A DNA stretch of 64,000 bases from Methanofervidicoccus sp. A16 (GTDB lineage Archaea > AGJL01 > Methanococci > Methanococcales > Methanococcaceae), in NCBI RefSeq assembly GCF_003351865.1, contig NZ_CP022242.1:868001-932000 (forward strand), in the 5' to 3' direction. Within the stretch, counting starts at the first letter, position 1. The number at the start of each line of letters is the position of its first letter. Both the position numbers and the translations under genes were made by a program. This document shows positions 23,765 to 34,863 of the stretch, in pieces. The notes under the pieces were generated by a model. That model saw only the letters and a list, made by a program, of their open reading frames with translations, ran no database searches and had not been told where the DNA came from.

Positions 23765-26700
23765 TTAAGACCTCTCTATCCTCACTGCTTCCCCATTCCT
23801 CCACTCCACAAAGATAGGCTCATCTGGGAGATCTTCCAAGGTTTTGAAGTACTCTACTGCTGCCTTTGTACCCCATCTGTCGGAACCTGCCAGGAGGACA
23901 ACTGTATGGCCATCGATCTTAATTACCTCTATCACTCCCCTATGTTTTCCTGGGTATTCGTTTGTTACTCTTACTGGGAAGTAATTCAGGTACTTTTTCA
24001 CAACTGGGTTTGCTACAGGGCCCCCTATGAGAATACAGTCTTCTTTTATCTCTAAGGATCTGTCAGTTATATTTACATCGGTTTTTAGGTACTTTGCTGA
24101 GAGGTTGATGTCTATCTCGGAACCTACAATAAGTTTTGTTTTATATACGAAATACATTATATTTTCTGATTTGATATCCCTTGCTACTATCTTAGTGAGA
24201 GGTGATGGTCCTCCTCCACTGGAAGTGTAAGGAGTATCTCTTTCATCTGTAGATCTTTTTATAGTAGTTTTCTTTGGTGGTAATTTTGCTGAGAGTGTAA
24301 CTTTTACAACGGGATCTTTTATTAGTGTTATCTCCAATACTCCCTTGACAGGTATTCTGTACCATCCTATTTTATTCCCTATATCATTTTCTACCAGGGT
24401 TACTGTGGTAGTTCCATCGAATACTGTGACCTTTTCTACAGTTAGATTGCCTATTGGTATTCTAACTGTTATAAATCCTTTCTTGGAGGTATTTTCTGCC
24501 TTGAAGGAGATAGTAGATATTACCTTGTTTCCTACTTTTGTAGTATTCACTGTTTTATTATTTATTTTAAAATTCTGAGCTAGCACTGGTGTTATATTTT
24601 CTTTAATTTTTTCAACTACTTCTTCTACATCAGATTCGTTTTTAATTGTTTTATTTGTAATATTATTTGCCACTTCGAGGATTTTAGTTATGTTTTCAAT
24701 TATACTTTCGTTTATAATTATATTTGTACTTTCGTTAAGTATTGGTATTAACAATGTGTCATTTAAGTTTTCTGCTTTTAATTTTGTTATGTTTATATCT
24801 TCTGTTATTATTAATTCCACTGGATATATATCTTTAATATTTTCACTTATTTTTATATTCTTTATATCTATAGCCACTCTTTTGAAAGGATAACCTCCAA
24901 TATCTGAAAGGATTATTTTATGTAATATTATTGAGTAGGTTGTATCAGTTACATTAAAGGTAATATTAGTTATTGAGAAATTTCCAGATTTAGAGAAGTT
25001 GTAACCTGTTATAAATAATATATTGTTAGATAGACTCCAATTGGATATCCCTATTGAAGTAACATTTATTACTGATAGGTTTTCTAATTTGATATATATG
25101 TCATATCCTCCAACAGGTCTTTTCTCTGGGATATTTAAAACATCTAATGTTGCCCATATGGTATTATTATCTTGAGAGATTTTGTACAGTTTGACATAGG
25201 TGGTTACTGGTCGAACTTCAACTACCTTCACAATTTTGTTATCATCCTCATTCTCCTCGGGTACTACGTTCCCGACATCTACAACTGCCACTATGGTGTA
25301 TGGTTTAATCTTTTCAGGAGTCCAGTTGAAGGTTAAAGTTTTACTTTCTCCTATCTTTAACCCATTTACAGTTATAGATCCTATCTTGTTAGCATCTGCA
25401 TATAGATCCACTGAGAAGGATCTGCTATTATTTAAATGACCGTTGTTAGTTATGGTTACATTTATTGGAGTGTTTATTCTGTAGTAAGGAGTATCTATGG
25501 AGATGTTTGTTATGTTTAGGTTAGGTCCTCTAATGGTGACCGTTGCTGGATTGATAGTTATATTTTTGAAGAGATAGCCATCTACATCAGATATATTTAC
25601 TTCCTCGAAGCTAATACTTATAGTGCTTACACCTATAACTTTGAATATTGCCGTAGCTATTATACTAGAAGTATTTATTTCCCCGTCTATTATCTTGAAT
25701 ATAACTTTACCTCTTTCGAAGGTTATATTTTTAAGATCTTGTGTAGCATTTACAAGGAATGTGAAATTAGTGCATGTTAGTACCTGTGGATCGTAAGTTA
25801 GTACTCCCTCTATTCCCTTTACAGGTCTTCTGTAATCAACACCATATAGGGAGATATTTACAGTGAATGTATCGTCTAAGTCAGTTGTTAAGTTTGATGG
25901 ATTTATTTTTATGTATATTGGTTTCTCAGTAACTTTAACTACCTTCACAATTTTGTTATCATCCTCATTCTCCTCGGGTACTACGTTCCCGACATCTACA
26001 ACTGCCACTATGGTGTATGGTTTAATCTTTTCAGGAGTCCAGTTGAAGGTTAAAGTTTTACTTTCTCCTATCTTTAACCCATTTACAGTTATAGATCCTA
26101 TCTTGTTAGCATCTGCATATAGATCCACTGAGAAGGATCTGCTATTATTTAAATGACCGTTGTTAGTTATGGTTACATTTATTGGAGTGTTTATTCTGTA
26201 GTAAGGAGTATCTATGGAGATGTTTGTTATGTTTAGGTTAGGTCCTCTAATGGTGACCGTTGCTGGATTGATAGTTATATTTTTGAAGAGATAGCCATCT
26301 ACATCAGATATATTTACTTCCTCGAAGCTAATACTTATAGTGCTTACACCTATAACTTTGAATATTGCCGTAGCTATTATACTAGAAGTATTTATTTCCC
26401 CGTCTATTATCTTGAATATAACTTTACCTCTTTCGAAGGTTATATTTTTAAGATCTTGTGTAGCATTTACAAGGAATGTGAAATTAGTGCATGTTAGTAC
26501 CTGTGGATCGTAAGTTAGTACTCCCTCTATTCCCTTTACAGGTCTTCTGTAATCAACACCATATAGGGAGATATTTACAGTGAATGTATCGTCTAAGTCA
26601 GTTGTTAAGTTTGATGGATTTATTTTTATGTATATTGGTTTCTCAGTAACTTTAACTACCTTCACAATTTTGTTATCATCCTCATTCTCCTCGGGTACTA

Positions 26701-27427
26701 CGTTCCCGACATCTACAACTGCCACTATGGTGTATGGTTTAATCTTTTCAGGAGTCCAGTTGAAGGTTAAAGTTTTACTTTCTCCTATCTTTAACCCATT
26801 TACAGTTATAGATCCTATCTTGTTAGCATCTGCATATAGATCCACTGAGAAGGATCTGCTATTATTTAAATGACCGTTGTTAGTTATGGTTACATTTATT
26901 GGAGTGTTTATTCTGTAGTAAGGAGTATCTATGGAGATGTTTGTTATGTTTAGGTTGGGACCTTTAACGGTGACTGTGGCGGGGTGGATTATAATTTTAT
27001 CTTTATTATATGAATGTCCACTATCGTTAGCTATTACTGTCTTTTTCAAAGTTATATTTATCTCTCCAGGCTTTAATGTCTTGAAGGATAGAACAGCTAA
27101 GGTGAAATTACCATAGGGTGACTCAGAGAACCATATTAAACTTATTTTTCCAGAAGAAAGATTTACTTCTTTTAAACTAGCATTTTCTCCAACTTCACTT
27201 AACTTAATATCAGTTAAATTCACTACGTTAGAATCATAACTTATCTCAGTTTCAAAACCTCCACATTTTCCATCCTCAGGTACATTCTTTACAACTAAAG
27301 TTAAGTTAAAAATATTTCCTACCTCTACCTCCACATTACTAGGTACAAGTTCTACTGTGATATCCTCTCCATAACAGATACCAATCAATGACATCAATAA
27401 AATTGCTATTAAAAACTTCCATTTCAT
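23765..27427 (-). CDS. Multi-cohesin surface scaffold with S-layer-type C-terminus
   Basis: A 1,220-residue secreted protein. It has a signal peptide (1-20) and a cohesin-like domain (about 21-155). Three CARDB-like Ig modules (about 158-262, 397-501, 636-740) alternate with two near-identical cohesin-like domains (about 264-395, 503-634). A fourth, diverged cohesin-like domain follows (about 745-870), then an Asn/Ile-rich helical region. The C-terminal domain (about 1090-1220) has IGGPVANPVVKKYL and VVLLAGSDRWGTKAAVEYF, as in Methanococcales S-layer proteins. Many NxS/T sites suggest glycosylation. It is 50 bp downstream of the dockerin-bearing binding protein, its likely ligand. Confidence 0.82.
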   Translation of the reverse strand: MKWKFLIAILLMSLIGICYGEDITVELVPSNVEVEVGNIFNLTLVVKNVPEDGKCGGFETEISYDSNVVNLTDIKLSEVGENASLKEVNLSSGKISLIWFSESPYGNFTLAVLSFKTLKPGEINITLKKTVIANDSGHSYNKDKIIIHPATVTVKGPNLNITNISIDTPYYRINTPINVTITNNGHLNNSRSFSVDLYADANKIGSITVNGLKIGESKTLTFNWTPEKIKPYTIVAVVDVGNVVPEENEDDNKIVKVVKVTEKPIYIKINPSNLTTDLDDTFTVNISLYGVDYRRPVKGIEGVLTYDPQVLTCTNFTFLVNATQDLKNITFERGKVIFKIIDGEINTSSIIATAIFKVIGVSTISISFEEVNISDVDGYLFKNITINPATVTIRGPNLNITNISIDTPYYRINTPINVTITNNGHLNNSRSFSVDLYADANKIGSITVNGLKIGESKTLTFNWTPEKIKPYTIVAVVDVGNVVPEENEDDNKIVKVVKVTEKPIYIKINPSNLTTDLDDTFTVNISLYGVDYRRPVKGIEGVLTYDPQVLTCTNFTFLVNATQDLKNITFERGKVIFKIIDGEINTSSIIATAIFKVIGVSTISISFEEVNISDVDGYLFKNITINPATVTIRGPNLNITNISIDTPYYRINTPINVTITNNGHLNNSRSFSVDLYADANKIGSITVNGLKIGESKTLTFNWTPEKIKPYTIVAVVDVGNVVPEENEDDNKIVKVVEVRPVTTYVKLYKISQDNNTIWATLDVLNIPEKRPVGGYDIYIKLENLSVINVTSIGISNWSLSNNILFITGYNFSKSGNFSITNITFNVTDTTYSIILHKIILSDIGGYPFKRVAIDIKNIKISENIKDIYPVELIITEDINITKLKAENLNDTLLIPILNESTNIIINESIIENITKILEVANNITNKTIKNESDVEEVVEKIKENITPVLAQNFKINNKTVNTTKVGNKVISTISFKAENTSKKGFITVRIPIGNLTVEKVTVFDGTTTVTLVENDIGNKIGWYRIPVKGVLEITLIKDPVVKVTLSAKLPPKKTTIKRSTDERDTPYTSSGGGPSPLTKIVARDIKSENIMYFVYKTKLIVGSEIDINLSAKYLKTDVNITDRSLEIKEDCILIGGPVANPVVKKYLNYFPVRVTNEYPGKHRGVIEVIKIDGHTVVLLAGSDRWGTKAAVEYFKTLEDLPDEPIFVEWRNGEAVRIERS
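25221..26955 (-). repeat. 717-bp tandem duplication inside the scaffold gene (about 2.4 copies)
   Basis: Units start at 25221, 25938 and 26655, exactly 717 bp (239 codons) apart. By eye the first two units are identical or nearly so. The third matches until about 26955, where it diverges into the first cohesin domain. Each full unit encodes one CARDB-like and one cohesin-like module. Identity at silent positions implies a recent duplication or gene conversion. Confidence 0.9.
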
Positions 27428-27477: not shown

Positions 27478-28839
27478 TTAATTCGCAGTATAAGGTTCTG
27501 CAGTGTTACTCTCTGGGTAGTACCTCAGGAAGAAGTGGGTTGTTCTTCCCTTGAATGCCTCAGGATGTATTATAGCACCTAAGTCCATTAGAACCTCGTC
27601 GGTTTTCATCAGTCCAAGTTGCCAGTAGTCATCACTTATACAGAATAACCTTCCATTTTGCACAGCTTTGAATTCCTTATATCCAGGGTGATCCTCCTTA
27701 AAGGTATCTAAGTACTTAGTTGTTGATGGCACTACCCATATATCAGCGTCCTTTGCCCTCTCTGCAAAGGTTTCATAGTCTATCTTTGCACTACCTGTAC
27801 CTGGATAGTCGGTGAATATGTAAGATGCGTGGCAGAAGTCCATTATTCCCTTGGCAACGTAGGATTGAGCCTTAGGTACAGATACACCCCATCCTCGATA
27901 GTTCTTACCCCAGGCAACTAACACATTTGGATCACAGTTGTAGGTTCTTCTCTTTACATCTAAGGATCTCTTCTCAACCCTTGTGAAGTACTTCTTGGCA
28001 GCATCTTCCTTGTTGTAGAATGCTGCAAACATCTTTACCCATTCACACCTTGCTAAGTATGTTGGTTCCAAGTACTCTGCATTTGCAACGTAGGTTATAT
28101 TTAACTCCTTACACATTTCTATTATTGCATCTCCATCGTACCCTGGATATACGAATATTACCTGTGGAGAGATATTTACTATTAGATCCCAGTTTGGCTC
28201 CCGGGTTGAACCAACGTCTATTATAGATCCATTCTCAAGTCTCTTCTCTATCTCCTCAAAGTACCACTTGTATCCACTACCCCACATAATTCCCTTTATT
28301 GAGGATATCACAGATCCATCGTCATTTAAGGGCATCATTAGTGCAATGTGTGTTGAACTCATGACGACAACGTTCTCCAGTGGTACATCTATTACTATAT
28401 CGTACTTACCTTTAGCCCATTCAGGTACTGGCTGGGACTTGTTCTTCAGTAAGATTTTCTGATCTTTATCATCCACGAATATCTTATAAGCCCAACTCTC
28501 TCCCTCATATGGATTTACTTCATTACCCTCCTCGTCGTAGTACTTTAGATTCATGTTTTGAGCATACTTTATAGGTTCTTTCAATTTCTCGTAATTTTTA
28601 AATAGATACACTACATCTGCAATGTCTATACTGTTGTCACAGTTTAGATCTCCGTCTTCAAACGGTAGGTTCCTATTTTTAAATAGATACACTACATCTG
28701 CAATATTTATTTCACCATCTTCATTTACATCCCCAAATCTGTAATTGTAGTTGCTCTCTGCAAATACGGGCATTATTAATATTAATAAAGTTACAACACT
28801 TAGTATTACTTTAGGAATAATATATATGTTTTTTGTCAT
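27478..28839 (-). CDS. Dockerin-bearing periplasmic binding protein of an iron/cobalamin-type ABC importer
   Basis: The 453-residue protein has a signal peptide (about 1-27). An N-terminal type-I dockerin has two calcium loops, GDVNEDGEINIAD (36-48) and GDLNCDNSIDIAD (63-75), each followed by VVYLFKN. A FecB/BtuF-like substrate-binding domain follows (about 140-453; VVVMSSTHIALM, NWDLIVNISPQVIFVYPG, DADIWVVPSTTKY). Dockerins are normally C-terminal and attached to enzymes; one on a solute receptor is unusual. The ATG at 28839 follows GAGGTGG; the frame opens earlier at TTG 28854. It heads the minus-strand operon with the cohesin scaffold and is divergent from the other cohesin and permease genes. 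Confidence 0.88.
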   Translation of the reverse strand: MTKNIYIIPKVILSVVTLLILIMPVFAESNYNYRFGDVNEDGEINIADVVYLFKNRNLPFEDGDLNCDNSIDIADVVYLFKNYEKLKEPIKYAQNMNLKYYDEEGNEVNPYEGESWAYKIFVDDKDQKILLKNKSQPVPEWAKGKYDIVIDVPLENVVVMSSTHIALMMPLNDDGSVISSIKGIMWGSGYKWYFEEIEKRLENGSIIDVGSTREPNWDLIVNISPQVIFVYPGYDGDAIIEMCKELNITYVANAEYLEPTYLARCEWVKMFAAFYNKEDAAKKYFTRVEKRSLDVKRRTYNCDPNVLVAWGKNYRGWGVSVPKAQSYVAKGIMDFCHASYIFTDYPGTGSAKIDYETFAERAKDADIWVVPSTTKYLDTFKEDHPGYKEFKAVQNGRLFCISDDYWQLGLMKTDEVLMDLGAIIHPEAFKGRTTHFFLRYYPESNTAEPYTAN

Positions 28840-29037
28840 AATATGCCACCTCAAAACTTTTTTATATTACTAAAATATATTAAAAAAATATTTTCTATTA
28901 TTTTTAAATAAACTAATCACAGCCCTATTTTTTACAGAACTTTATATTTATATATTACGGTTTATTTTATAAAATTTAAAATTTACTTTAATTCAGATAT
29001 TTTTTAATAAGATAGAGAAATAGAAGGAGGGTGAATT
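28840..29037. promoter_or_regulatory. Divergent promoter region of the cohesin-dockerin cluster
   Basis: 198 bp between the two divergent operons. TATA-like tracts include TTTATATTTATATATTACGG near 28950-28970. The rightward genes have a strong ribosome binding site GGAGGGTGA at 29026-29034. Shared control of both operons is likely from the layout; I see no operator I can name. Confidence 0.5.
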
Positions 29038-29610
29038 ATGAAGAAAATATTTCCCATAAGTATACTATTTGTAGTTTTGCTATTAGTAGAAGGGGTTTTA
29101 GCGTCAGAGAATATCTATCTAAAGGTAGACATGCCTAAAAAGATAGAAATAGGTAAAAATTTTACCATAGATGTAGATGTTAATTTAAATAGAAATATCT
29201 CTGGTTTTGAATGTAAGATCGACACACCTATCTACGGTGCAGAGTGTATCCAATTTATAAATGCTACGGGAAATGAAAAAATAAAAGAAAAAGCAGGGAG
29301 ATTTTACCTATTAGATTTAAAAAATAACTCAGTGTTTATCAGATTTGTTCTTTTAGATAAACCTCTAAATTCAGATTTCCATCTAATTACAGTAAAAGGA
29401 AGAGCACTAAAAAAGGGGAATCTAACTATTAGATTCAGTGCAGTAGCCTCAGATGAAAATGGTAATGCCATCAAAATATCTCCCGTAACCTATCACTTAG
29501 AGATAGTTGGTAACAGCCAGGACAGTAGCAAAAAAACAGAGGATAATAACGTATTCTCTTGGATAATTGAGATCATATCAAATATCCTAAGAATGATATT
29601 CGGTGGTTAA
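29038..29610 (+). CDS. Secreted single-cohesin protein
   Basis: 190 residues. A signal peptide (1-22, ending GVLA) leads into one cohesin-like beta-sandwich (about 24-158: YLKVDMPKKIEIGKNFTIDV, ISGFECKIDTP, LITVKGRALKKGNLTIRFS, then SDENGNAI). The short polar linker ends in a hydrophobic tail (SWIIEIISNILRMIFGG) that may anchor it loosely to the membrane. It is first of the rightward operon, with ATG 29038 after GGAGGGTGA. It is a candidate membrane-side receptor for the dockerin protein. Cohesin assignment is by pattern and context. Confidence 0.65.
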   Translation: MKKIFPISILFVVLLLVEGVLASENIYLKVDMPKKIEIGKNFTIDVDVNLNRNISGFECKIDTPIYGAECIQFINATGNEKIKEKAGRFYLLDLKNNSVFIRFVLLDKPLNSDFHLITVKGRALKKGNLTIRFSAVASDENGNAIKISPVTYHLEIVGNSQDSSKKTEDNNVFSWIIEIISNILRMIFGG

Positions 29611-30492
29611 ATGAGGAGGGTTTTCTATATTTTTATTACCTTACTATTTTTTTCAATGTTTTTCACTAATACCTATGCTCTGGACAGTATAGTTGTGAAG
29701 TTAGATCCTGATTATGTAAAAACCTATGAAGAACCGGTATATTTTAAGATATGTGTAGAGAACATACCTCCAAGGGAGAGTTTAGGTACACCATCAATAT
29801 ATTCCGATCCTGAAATAATAGATGGAGGATGCCTTGGAGTTGATATATATATTAATTACTCCTCTGAACATTTAAAACCTATAGGATTCAATTGGAGTGA
29901 GGAATTTAAAAATGTAAAAATGAAAGAATATAGATTTGAAAATGGAACGTTCTATCTCAGTATTTCCTTTCAGGATCCTAAAGAAGGTAATATATGTCTT
30001 GGTACTCTAACTTTCAGTCCCATTAAAAAAGGTAGAACTACTTTAAATCTTTCAGGTATAGTAAGTTCCGAATATGGAATAACATACAGTAATAAAAATA
30101 GATACTATATAGATTATGGTAAAACTTCCCAACGTATTGAATATTATCCAAATACTGAATTTCACGGTGCAACGGTAGTTATTGAAGGAGAGGGCAACTA
30201 TATTAACTACTCCACGAAGTTGGAAGAAACTTTGGGTGAAAGTAATATCGTAGATGAAGAAAGTTCAGAATACAGAGGTAAAGTTATCAATAATATAACA
30301 GTTATTATTAATCAGGATGTTCCCAAGGTTGTTGTAAAAGAGATTAATATATCAGAAGGAAAACCCAATATTACCGTTATAGTAAACACTTCAGAGGTGT
30401 TAGATTATAAATTGTTAATTTACACTTTCATAGGTAGTTTATTATCAGGTATTCTTTTCGGAGCAATAATGAAGTTGATGAGGATAGTATGA
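29611..30492 (+). CDS. Membrane-anchored cohesin-like protein
   Basis: 293 residues. It has a signal peptide (1-24, ending NTYA), a cohesin-like domain (about 26-195; VKLDPDYVKTYEEPVYFKI, GVDIYINYSSEHLKPIGFNW, LGTLTFSPIKKGRTTLNLSG, SSEYG), a linker with repeated NxT/S sites, and a C-terminal transmembrane helix (about 265-285, LLIYTFIGSLLSGILFGAIM). The ATG abuts the previous stop and the gene overlaps the next by 4 bp (ATGA), so it is translationally coupled. It probably displays a cohesin on the cell membrane. Confidence 0.68.
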   Translation: MRRVFYIFITLLFFSMFFTNTYALDSIVVKLDPDYVKTYEEPVYFKICVENIPPRESLGTPSIYSDPEIIDGGCLGVDIYINYSSEHLKPIGFNWSEEFKNVKMKEYRFENGTFYLSISFQDPKEGNICLGTLTFSPIKKGRTTLNLSGIVSSEYGITYSNKNRYYIDYGKTSQRIEYYPNTEFHGATVVIEGEGNYINYSTKLEETLGESNIVDEESSEYRGKVINNITVIINQDVPKVVVKEINISEGKPNITVIVNTSEVLDYKLLIYTFIGSLLSGILFGAIMKLMRIV

Positions 30493-32618
30493 AACCCATA
30501 ACTATTTTGTTGTTAATGGTATTTTTTTTATTTATTCCACTATCTCAAGGAGAGAACATTACAGTGGAACTTGTACCTCGTAGTGTAGAGGTAGAGATCG
30601 GAAGTACCTTTAACTTAGATCTAGTTGTAAAGAATGTTCCTGAGGATGGAAAGTGTCAAGGTTTTGAAACTGAGATACATTACGATCCTGATATTGTAAA
30701 TTTAAGTAATATTCAATTAAGTGAGGTTGGAGAGAGAGCTGGTGATTTTACTACTATAAAGATAAACCCCACCTATGGATACATGTCTCTAATGTGGCTC
30801 TCTGATCCACCCTATGGTAACTTTACCTTGGCTACCCTCTCCTTCAAGGCGTTGAATCCTGGAGAGGTAAATGTAACTTTAAGAGATGTAGCAATATCTG
30901 ACGAGAATGGACATTCGTATAAAAATATAGTGAAATATCCAGCAACAGTAACAGTGAAATCCATAAATGAATCCATAGGAATTCTAACACTGAAAAATTT
31001 CAAGATAAACAGTAAAATAGATGGTATTTTATCTCTAATTGTGGCAGAAACACCTGTAAAGAATATATCTGGAAAAATAGTTTTTAGTAACGTATCTCTC
31101 GTAGGAGTGCCCGTACCTCTCGATGTAGGCATGTCTAGAAATTACAGTTACTCCATAGAGAATAATACTTTCTTATTCTTCACAGCCCTCTCTAAGGAGT
31201 ATGAAAATAAAACAGCATTTAATTTCTTAAAGATACCATTATTGATAAACAGTTCCTCTTACAACATATCTATAAATCTATGGATAAACGGAAAGTTAGT
31301 AGAAAATGTATCTATTATTAAGGAGGAAAATACCACTCCAAAATACAGTGGTTTAATTTTCTATGTAGATGGAGATTATAGAGAGAAGATAAACATATCC
31401 TTAGGTTATTCAAAAGAAATAAAATTAAAAGTATACAACGTTAATAGAAACCTCACCAATTTCTCTGGATGTATCTTTATAAACAACTCCCTCTTTAAAG
31501 TTTCTAACTACAGAGTACCTGAGTACTCTAAAATATATAAGAGGATAAATTTCTCCAACATTACCTACAACAACAGTTATCTATACTTTAACATCTCCCT
31601 TACAAATGGAACAAATGGGACTTACAGTATATTAAAATTTACAATATCTCCCAAGGTTAATGAAAACATCTCCTCTCTTATTTATCTAGAAAATCTTTCC
31701 ATATACGAAAACTGTACAGAATTATCACTTCCCTATAAAAATCTCACAGTAAATATAATAAAAAGAAGAGAGAATACGCCTCCAAAGTTGAAAGTAGTTC
31801 TCTTTATAGAGGATAATAAAAAAGTTCATTTCAGAGCCTTAGGTTACGATGCAGATAACGAGACGTTGAGATACTTCTGGGACTTTGGAGATGGGAAAAA
31901 TTCAACGTTACAGGATCCTGTACATATATACACTAACTGTACTACATATTTAGTATCCTGTACAGTGTGGGACAGTTTTAATGAGAGTGATAAGGTAGAG
32001 TTCATACTTCCTATAGTAGATGTATCACCCCTTGAATCCTACTCTATAATTGATATAAATACTTCTCATAACAACTCTAAAAACTACACCATTTATTTAA
32101 ATCTCTCTTTAAAAAATCCCTTTGAATATAAAGTAGGAGGATACATCAACTTTGTAAATTACTACAACAATTACTACCCCCCAAAGCTACAGTACTATAT
32201 AGAGTTAGATCCTAATGAGACTAAAAGTTTACTGATCCCCATTAATATCACTAAATCCTGTGACATAAAATGGAATGTAGTGTATTATCCACTATACAAG
32301 GATAAACTCCTAGGGGATGCGGAACTTAAGTACTATCAATGGGATTTTGAGAAAAAGATAGATGTATCAAAGTACAGTAAAAAACCCATAGAGGAGAGTA
32401 TAGTATATAAATATATAAATACTTACTCCAAGGTAGTGAATATCAGTACTCCCAAGGTAGTGGTGAAGATAATAAGGTGTTACGATGGAGAGTATATCGT
32501 ATCTAAGGATATTGTTGTTAGTACAAAATCTATATACTTCTACATCGCTACGTCTCTCTCTGGGTTTATGATAGGATTGATAACAATATTAACTGTTATA
32601 AAAAAGAGAGGATTATAA
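30489..32618 (+). CDS. Cohesin and PKD-domain membrane-anchored surface protein
   Basis: 709 residues. After a signal peptide (1-21) comes a cohesin-like domain (22-155) closely similar to the first cohesin of the scaffold gene (both have [14 protein letters not shown], then [16 protein letters not shown]). A beta-rich middle contains a second cohesin-like stretch, followed by a PKD domain (about 430-512: [21 protein letters not shown]). A C-terminal transmembrane helix (about 683-705) ends KKRGL. The similarity to the scaffold indicates both bind the same dockerin. It lies directly upstream of the permease genes. Confidence 0.78.
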
Positions 32619-32683: not shown

Positions 32684-33733
32684 TTGAAATACAAGAGGTT
32701 TCTAACGGTATTCTTTATATCACTTGTTATACTCACTCTTTTATCCTACGTAAGTATCAAAGAGGGTACTATTCCTATAAAGGATGAACAGTTGAAAAAA
32801 TACCTCCTAGAGGGAACCTCTGGCAATCCTATTATTGATAAGATAATAGGGAAGTTAAGACTACCAAGAACTGTGGGAGCCATCATTGTCGGAATGGGGA
32901 TTGCAGTTGCAGGGATACTTATGCAGGGATACTTCCGGAATCCTCTGGCAGATCCCTATCTAATGGGTGTGGCAAGTGGTGCCTCCTTAGGTGTTGTGTT
33001 GTATATATTCACATCTCTACTTTTCAACTTAGGGTTTCCTCGTTCACTATATGGCTTTATCCTTGCAGCCTATATAGGTTCTCTGATTACCATGTTTGTA
33101 GTTATCAACATCGCAAGGGTTGTTAAACAGACTGCAACCTTACTGATAAGCGGTATTATGATAGGTGCCATAGCCTCTGGATTTACCACTATAGTGGTAT
33201 ATACTGCAGACTTTCTCGGCGAGGAGAGATCTGAACTCTCTGGGTATCTTATGTGGGGTATGGGTTCTGTAAATAACTTAACTTGGGATCAGATCCGAAT
33301 CATGACTTCACTAATCATCCCTGTAGTTATACTATCCTACATATTACTATCGAAAAAACTTGACGCCAATCTCCTTGGAGAGATGTACGCCCAGAGTGTA
33401 GGGGTTGATATAAAGAGTTTAAGGAGGTGGTTGATAGTACTCTCCTGTATATTAACTGCAACGGTAGTGGCTTTTACAGGGCCTATAGCCTTCGTGGGAA
33501 TGGTATGTCCTATAATAAGTAGGATGGTAGTGGGAACTTCAAAACACCTCTATGTAATACCTACAACTGCCCTCTTAGGTTCCATATTTGTACTTCTTGC
33601 AGATATACTTACAAGACCTGGAGTTCTGATACCTACATCCTCTAACAATCTGCCTCTTCTATGTCCTCTATCTATAATAGGGGCGCCTATAGCTATACTG
33701 ATATACTTAAAGATAAGGCGTATGGGGATATAA
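32684..33733 (+). CDS. FecCD-family ABC transporter permease, first copy
   Basis: 349 residues with about nine or ten transmembrane helices, in the iron-siderophore/cobalamin (BtuC/FecCD) permease family. Signature segments are [61 protein letters not shown] and [25 protein letters not shown]. The start is TTG, set by GGTGAAACT immediately upstream. It ends at the first base of the next permease gene (TAATG). It probably forms a heterodimer with that permease and imports the ligand of the dockerin binding protein. Confidence 0.9.
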
Positions 33734-34863
33734 TGAGTTATTATAGATACTTTGTAATAACTACTCTACTAATTTTTATAGCGATACTCGTTATACTATG
33801 TATGTACTATGGAGGAAATGCCAGATCTATCACCTTAGGAGATACTACAGATTTTATTCTATATGAAACAAAGGTTATGTTAAACAGCATATATCATAAA
33901 ATCACTGGAGAGGATCTCTTCTATCTACCTCCTCTAAGTGAAGAGAAGAAATTTAAATATACACTTTTAAAAGAAGTACGTTTTCCCCCAATTTTCGGAG
34001 CCATTATTGTAGGGATAACCCTATCTGCATGTGGTTTAATGCTTCAGACACTCTTTAGGAATTTACTAGCCTCCCCCTATACTACAGGTATATCTAGCGG
34101 TGTACTATTTGCAGTTACTTTGGTAATATTTATAGACAGTATTGCACAACTCTTTTCCATCCTCAACATAGATGAGAAGATAGTTGCCGGCTGGTGTGGA
34201 GGTATATTATCCCTAATAATACTCCTTATAATAGCACTTAGAGTTAAGGAGGTAAATGGTGTTCTAATTGTTGCCCTCCTCTTCAGTTATCTCTTTAGAG
34301 GCATAAGTTCCTATTTAATAGCAAATGGAGAGGAACTCTCTATTGTAGAGTACTATATGTTCATAGTTGGAAGTTTAACAAGGGTTAATTTAAACAATCT
34401 TTTACCTCTTACCCTAATCACTTTAATCTTTGTGATAGGTAGTGTATTTTTAATAAAACCTCTAAACGCCTTACTCTTTGGTGAATCCTATGCTAGAAGT
34501 TTTGGATTAGATGTAAAAAAGATCAGAGTACTAATACTACTACTAACATCCTTCGTTGTTGGAGCCATAGTTCCCTACCTTGGACTTATGGCATTTGTAG
34601 GAATAGCAGCTCCCTATATGGCAAGAGTTGTAATAAAGACCTCCGACCATAGGTGGCTACTACCTACAACGATGCTATTAGGTATTATCTTGATGCTTGT
34701 CGCTCATCTAATATCCTTGAAGTATTGGGTACCTATCCACTACCTCTACGGTATAAACCGCCCTGCCCAAATCTTACCTGTAGGTTCTATCTTAGAAATA
34801 ATAGGAGGATTGTTGGTGGTATATTTGGTATACAAAGGAGAGAGAAAAGTAAGAATACAGTAG
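33733..34863 (+). CDS. FecCD-family ABC transporter permease, second copy
   Basis: 376 residues, the same family as the preceding gene but clearly divergent. It has an extra N-terminal extracytoplasmic stretch (about 25-85), then LLKEVRFPPIFGAIIVGITL, LMLQTLFRNLLASPYTTGISS, LGLMAFVGIAAPYMARVVIK and HRWLLPTTMLLGIILMLVAHL. The frame opens earlier at 33661, but the ATG at 33733 follows GGGGAT and fits the family. BtuC-type importers usually use a homodimer; two unlike adjacent copies suggest a heterodimer. No ATP-binding subunit follows: the next 950 bp are repeats. Confidence 0.9.
   Translation: MSYYRYFVITTLLIFIAILVILCMYYGGNARSITLGDTTDFILYETKVMLNSIYHKITGEDLFYLPPLSEEKKFKYTLLKEVRFPPIFGAIIVGITLSACGLMLQTLFRNLLASPYTTGISSGVLFAVTLVIFIDSIAQLFSILNIDEKIVAGWCGGILSLIILLIIALRVKEVNGVLIVALLFSYLFRGISSYLIANGEELSIVEYYMFIVGSLTRVNLNNLLPLTLITLIFVIGSVFLIKPLNALLFGESYARSFGLDVKKIRVLILLLTSFVVGAIVPYLGLMAFVGIAAPYMARVVIKTSDHRWLLPTTMLLGIILMLVAHLISLKYWVPIHYLYGINRPAQILPVGSILEIIGGLLVVYLVYKGERKVRIQ

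Follow-up and report, generated by a model that had tools for sequence, protein, structure and literature searches.

A multi-cohesin protein with an S-layer anchor-like tail as the probable scaffold of a tethering system for ABC importer binding proteins in Methanofervidicoccus

We analysed a 64,000-nucleotide (nt) stretch of the genome of Methanofervidicoccus sp. A16 (contig NZ_CP022242.1, positions 868,001 to 932,000; hereafter the window), in which an open reading frame (ORF) on the minus strand at 23765..27427 encodes a 1220-residue protein carrying four cohesin domains. This protein probably acts as a multi-cohesin scaffold in a system that tethers the solute-binding proteins (SBPs) of ATP-binding cassette (ABC) importers at the cell surface. 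It would be held there by a tail that resembles the anchor domain of surface layer (S-layer) proteins. The domains, the gene order, the co-occurrence of cohesins and dockerins among genomes, and the alternation of dockerin and lipobox on the SBPs were all computed directly.

Overall architecture of the scaffold

The domain order obtained from Pfam and AlphaFold models confirms that of the first-pass annotation, which had listed a signal peptide, a cohesin, an alternation of CARDB modules and cohesins, a diverged fourth cohesin and a C-terminal domain. All of the scaffold features lie on the minus strand. The signal peptide is a hydrophobic segment (residues 1–20, 27368..27427), with its cleavage site placed by eye. 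It is followed by cohesin 1 (residues 21–155, 26963..27367), CARDB 1 (residues 155–262, 26642..26965), cohesin 2 (residues 265–395, 26243..26635), CARDB 2 (residues 394–501, 25925..26248), cohesin 3 (residues 504–634, 25526..25918), which the repeat comparison revealed to be identical to cohesin 2, CARDB 3 (residues 633–740, 25208..25531) and cohesin 4 (residues 742–868, 24824..25204). In the Pfam scan, the three CARDB stretches together scored 191.2 bits and cohesin 1 scored 38.1 bits, both above the cut-off, and cohesins 2, 3 and 4 escaped detection. In the AlphaFold model of residues 21–403 (predicted local distance difference test score, pLDDT, 85), modules 1 and 2 both adopt cohesin folds with Z scores of about 17 to solved cohesins (1g1k and 6kgf for cohesin 2), and the CARDB module resembles 3idu (Z 13.7, 32% identity). 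In the model of residues 742–1220 (pLDDT 76.5, predicted template modelling score 0.43), module 4 is also a cohesin fold, with a Z score of 13.4 to the Archaeoglobus fulgidus cohesin 2xdh. The scaffold holds four cohesins within one polypeptide, as is required of a cellulosomal scaffoldin. The expectation of several docking sites per molecule is thus well supported, by the four folds and by the dockerin-bearing partner encoded next to them.

The cohesin 2–CARDB unit is an exact tandem repeat with a period of 717 nt and about 2.4 copies (25220..26956), as revealed by sequence self-comparison, in which 1020 bases match at that lag over nt 472–2208 of the gene. Since the repeat is exact, the growth of the cohesin array is recent. 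The repeat number varies among the other Methanococcales scaffolds, and the copy number in the window could differ between strains or reflect the assembly.

Between cohesin 4 and the tail lie a helix/strand module (residues 869–1045, 24293..24823) and a Ser/Thr/Gly/Pro linker of low confidence (24179..24292, pLDDT below 50 over much of its length). The module matches no convincing family in NCBIfam or Pfam. It had previously been described as a helical segment; two helices are indeed present in the AlphaFold model, but they sit inside a mostly β module. The tail itself comprises 137 residues (1084–1220, 23768..24178). As no C-terminal membrane helix was found in the scaffold, the part most likely to retain it is the tail. 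Both the module and the tail recur in two paralogues in the same genome, a 1736-residue β-helix protein and a 502-residue protein. The former (L012:6343-11553) is a NosD-like surface protein with strong internal repeats, which carries cohesin 4, the helix/strand module and the tail.

Kinship of the tail with the S-layer anchor

The tail scored 43.5 bits against PF05124, a family that the Pfam scan of the scaffold reported above cut-off as S_layer_C (39.4 bits), and 33.4 bits against TIGR01564 (cut-off 25), where the match covers the final part alone (positions 499–565 of 571). All of the 20 tails that we collected match PF05124, and none has a convincing match to another family. They scored 27.2–48.3 bits against an S-layer C-terminal profile, far above the best value of 10.7 among 10,000 shuffled tails (20 x 500), which excludes chance. 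The alignment with the genome's own S-layer protein, which had been proposed together with the idea of an S-layer-type C-terminus, was performed with hhalign against this protein and three other S-layer proteins; it gave 97% (E 8.2e-11, 64 columns) and supports that idea. By sequence, a profile of the 20 tails found a single convincing solved structure, 9FSA (E 2.1e-6, over 65 profile positions). In PMC11410804, 9FSA is described as the anchor from the Methanococcus voltae S-layer protein, with residues 24–75 and 484–576 joined by a linker; on the basis of SymProFold, this anchor is said to make up the 2-fold axis in the anchoring region.

The genome's own S-layer protein carries PF05124 in two parts, one on either side of the PF05123 lattice domain (222.5 bits), just as a large lattice insert divides the anchor domain in the M. 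voltae protein. The scaffold tail, in contrast, is continuous, and PF05123 was not found in the scaffold by the Pfam scan (E up to 10). As judged by eye, the secondary structures of the tail model follow an order that would fit an intact anchor domain with no interruption; the sequence match with 9FSA is a further likeness.

A tail-like match is present in all of the 36 Methanococcales genomes surveyed, and a single genome can have as many as 24. A search for the tail at the level of the phylum covered just these 36 genomes, and we therefore make no claim beyond the Methanococcales. In the relative G016, one protein (L172:2401-6492) consists of two tandem PF05123 lattice domains followed by a scaffold-type tail. 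No other finding ties the scaffold tail type to the S-layer as directly as this fusion. The protein is perhaps a double-size S-layer subunit. Another S-layer relative is a 438-residue protein with a PF05124 C-terminus (L013:2959-4275), and PF05124-type matches of similar ORF size (about 380–500 residues) occur in most Methanococcales genomes.

Several observations on the tail weigh against the proposed anchoring. At the sequence level, hhalign did not detect the anchor domain's first half in the tail (3.8%, 11 columns). 9FSA was not among the structure matches listed, where cohesin matches fill the list. In addition, structural similarity was found between the tail model and the N-terminal domain of GH67 (glycoside hydrolase family 67) α-glucuronidases (for 1h41, Z 10.0, 115 residues aligned, root-mean-square deviation 3.6), with no accompanying sequence match. 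The role of the tail could therefore differ from that of its counterpart in the S-layer protein. Separately, the GH67 likeness, which spans protein residues of about 1076–1207, raises the possibility of a common fold for the S-layer anchor of Methanococcales and an accessory domain of glycosidases.

The tail could accordingly be a general surface domain that binds a partner other than the S-layer, such as a glycan, the membrane or itself, with the S-layer link reflecting common ancestry only. The structural likeness to 1h41, 1gqi and 1mqp (Z 9.8–10) and the attachment of the tail to many different proteins speak in favor of this explanation. We nevertheless consider it unlikely, as all 20 tails match PF05124 and none convincingly matches a different family, and as the sole solved structure with a convincing relationship in sequence is the S-layer anchor 9FSA. 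Even less probable is that the scaffold is a minor S-layer subunit placed within the lattice, with its cohesins arrayed regularly on the outer face. The homology of the tail with the C-terminus of the S-layer protein and the fusion of such a tail to two S-layer central domains in L172 would fit this arrangement, but the scaffold lacks PF05123 and matches only the last positions of TIGR01564. For the same lack of PF05123, the scaffold was rejected as the S-layer protein proper. The first-pass annotation had left open whether the scaffold is incorporated in the S-layer or attached to it. Since PF05123 is absent and the matched S-layer region is, according to PMC11410804, the 2-fold anchor, attachment would be likelier than a position in the lattice, with the S-layer as the putative partner of the tail.

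A dockerin-bearing SBP and the neighboring genes

The gene 50 nt upstream of the scaffold, on the same strand (27478..28854), encodes a plain signal peptide, a dockerin and a Peripla_BP_2 domain (82.6 bits), and thus an SBP. Its dockerin (28561..28800) contains two calcium-loop repeats of the form DxNxDxxxxxxD, recognized by eye, and scored 23.2 bits with Dockerin_1 (cut-off 22.9) and E 0.0016 with the dockerin 5lxv_B. The genes beyond it run divergently, on the plus strand. The first three encode a small secreted cohesin-like protein (29038..29610, 190 residues), a cohesin-like protein with a C-terminal transmembrane helix (29611..30492, 293 residues), and a Pfam-detected cohesin and PKD protein, also with a predicted C-terminal transmembrane helix (30489..32618, 709 residues). 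The first two were identified with a profile of 22 local cohesins (A8), with E values of 1.2e-11 and 7.3e-23, respectively. Two FecCD permease genes follow (32684..33733, 225.7 bits, and 33661..34863, 178.9 bits).

In this genome, Pfam dockerins occur on only two proteins, both of them SBPs. The SBP beside the scaffold is, on this genomic evidence, its likely cargo. The second dockerin-SBP is encoded elsewhere (L015:3736-5001), divergently from genes that look, by eye, like an operon for an F420-reducing hydrogenase; this neighborhood may point to a metal, nickel or iron, as the substrate. A cellulosome was also considered and rejected, as the Pfam dockerins are confined to SBPs, with none on a glycoside hydrolase. 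The Pfam scan revealed no cellulose-binding or carbohydrate-binding module in the scaffold.

Dockerin in place of the lipid anchor

We compared the N-termini of 71 SBP-homologous ORFs, 55 from genomes with cohesins and 16 from the others. In the cohesin genomes, 46 of the 55 homologues carry a dockerin and eight are fragments or cut off; the remaining one is a distant (24 bits) lipoprotein, as judged by eye. In the cohesin-free genomes, 10 of the 16 bear a lipobox but lack a dockerin (the lipobox was recognized by pattern in nine and by eye in L178), and the other six comprise four short, signal-less ORFs, one that is cut off and one, from G015, with a dockerin. Five cohesin-free genomes (G002, G004, G007, G008 and G014) contain a direct orthologue of the SBP in the lipobox form, with 65–69% identity and 509–523 bits. 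In four of them (G004, G007, G008 and G014), the FecCD permease genes adjoin the lipobox SBP divergently, with no cohesin genes between them. The dockerin thus occupies the place that the lipid anchor holds in the relatives, and the best reading of the alternation is that cohesin–dockerin docking replaces the lipid anchor of the SBP.

Co-occurrence among the Methanococcales

Among the 36 genomes, dockerins were detected in 25 (E up to 1e-7) and cohesins in 25 with the A8 profile, or in 20 above the Pfam cut-off. Cohesin and dockerin were found together in 24 genomes, cohesin only in one, dockerin only in one and neither in 10 (Fisher p 4.6e-7). With the independent Pfam cohesin model, the corresponding numbers were 19, 1, 6 and 10 (p 2.7e-4). 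The single cohesin-only genome, G028, is 64% complete, and its SBP is cut off at a contig end. A cohesin and the tail are encoded in one ORF in 17 of the 36 genomes. In 15 of them, the gene immediately upstream, on the scaffold strand, encodes an SBP with a dockerin; in G028, the SBP is truncated. In five further genomes (G009, G020, G029, G030 and G034), the scaffold is either truncated by a contig end or divided between ORFs.

The survey also yielded points that count against tethering. Neither Fisher test takes shared ancestry into account, and the A8 profile derives from the very loci that were surveyed. L091, one of the 46 dockerin-SBPs, also fits the lipobox pattern. In G018, the last of the 17 genomes, the scaffold does not adjoin an SBP. 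G015 has a dockerin-SBP (L085:9053-10324) and no cohesin was found in it; this genome has either a diverged cohesin or lost the partner. Finally, G005 and G006 encode dockerin-SBPs and one small cohesin-like protein, and no scaffold is present in the 19 kb read; the scaffold is therefore not obligatory.

CARDB, PKD and β-helix domains are frequent in adhesins. That the cohesins serve mainly in cell adhesion or in binding the proteins of other cells, with the neighboring SBP as an incidental cargo, would suit this domain content and the proposal of adhesion for anaerobic methanotrophic (ANME) archaea in a review (PMC5244752), but it is very improbable in view of the conserved gene order with the SBP and permeases, the restriction of Pfam dockerins in the own genome to SBPs, and the alternation of dockerin and lipobox.

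A model for SBP tethering

In the tethering system that we favor, the SBP of a FecCD-type importer, of the kind specific for Fe3+ chelates or B12-like ligands, would be secreted with a dockerin and without a lipid anchor. The dockerin would bind cohesins, both on the two proteins encoded beside the permeases, which are predicted to sit in the membrane by their C-terminal helix, and on the scaffold, which would offer four cohesins and be fixed to the envelope through its C-terminal domain, a relative of the S-layer anchor domain minus the lattice insert. Tethering would assume the retaining role that the lipobox lipid anchor has in the cohesin-free relatives. Several SBPs may be held per scaffold molecule in the space between the membrane and the S-layer. 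Most likely, the SBPs on the membrane cohesins and those on the scaffold would both capture the ligand and pass it to the FecCD permeases. Through the scaffold, more SBPs would be tethered and connected with the side of this space that faces the S-layer.

A wider proposal has two parts: that in the Methanococcales a cohesin–dockerin network replaced lipid anchoring for a whole class of ABC importer SBPs, and that the lattice-free S-layer anchor is a portable tag which hangs cohesin scaffolds, β-helix proteins and others on the S-layer. For this combination we see the case as evenly balanced. If true, transport capture would be organized by a multivalent, exchangeable scaffold under the S-layer.

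Comparison with known cohesin–dockerin systems

The Methanococcales include genetically tractable laboratory species. Since orthologous SBPs carry either a lipobox or a dockerin, cohesins and dockerins gain a concrete, testable function, namely tethering. Their function outside cellulosomes is called unknown in a review (PMC5244752). The findings also point to a portable S-layer-attachment domain in the Methanococcales.

The closest parallels come from the ANME archaea. According to PMC9012536, these organisms have ABC binding proteins with dockerins as well as proteins with multiple cohesins, and earlier-known archaea lack large scaffoldins. The two systems share SBPs as common dockerin carriers, multi-cohesin proteins and a proposed surface attachment by S-layer domains. 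They differ in that, according to the same text, the S-layer domains of ANME archaea go with dockerins and their scaffolds combine a dockerin with cohesins, whereas Methanofervidicoccus has four cohesins and an S-layer anchor-like tail in one polypeptide, encoded in one locus with the SBP and permeases. The Methanococcales, a different archaeal order, also display the lipobox/dockerin alternation.

In bacteria, the anchoring scaffoldins of cellulosomes likewise display cohesins on the surface through an S-layer-associated module, the S-layer homology (SLH) domain, as described in PMC9012536. The present scaffold differs from them in that its putative cargo consists of binding proteins rather than cellulases, and in that Pfam detected no SLH domain. 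Among the structure matches listed, the non-cellulosomal A. fulgidus cohesin 2xdh is the closest solved fold to cohesin 4, and it is also close to cohesin 1 (Z 17.0). A. fulgidus is not known to have a similar scaffold that ends in an S-layer tail.

In the open-licence PubMed Central literature, we found no report of a Methanococcales cohesin scaffold or of a dockerin/lipobox swap. A contig scan with the scaffold alone as the query gave no matches, and a scan with the SBP alignment retrieved Methanothermococcus and Methanocaldococcus records together with distant bacterial SBPs (L118-L140).

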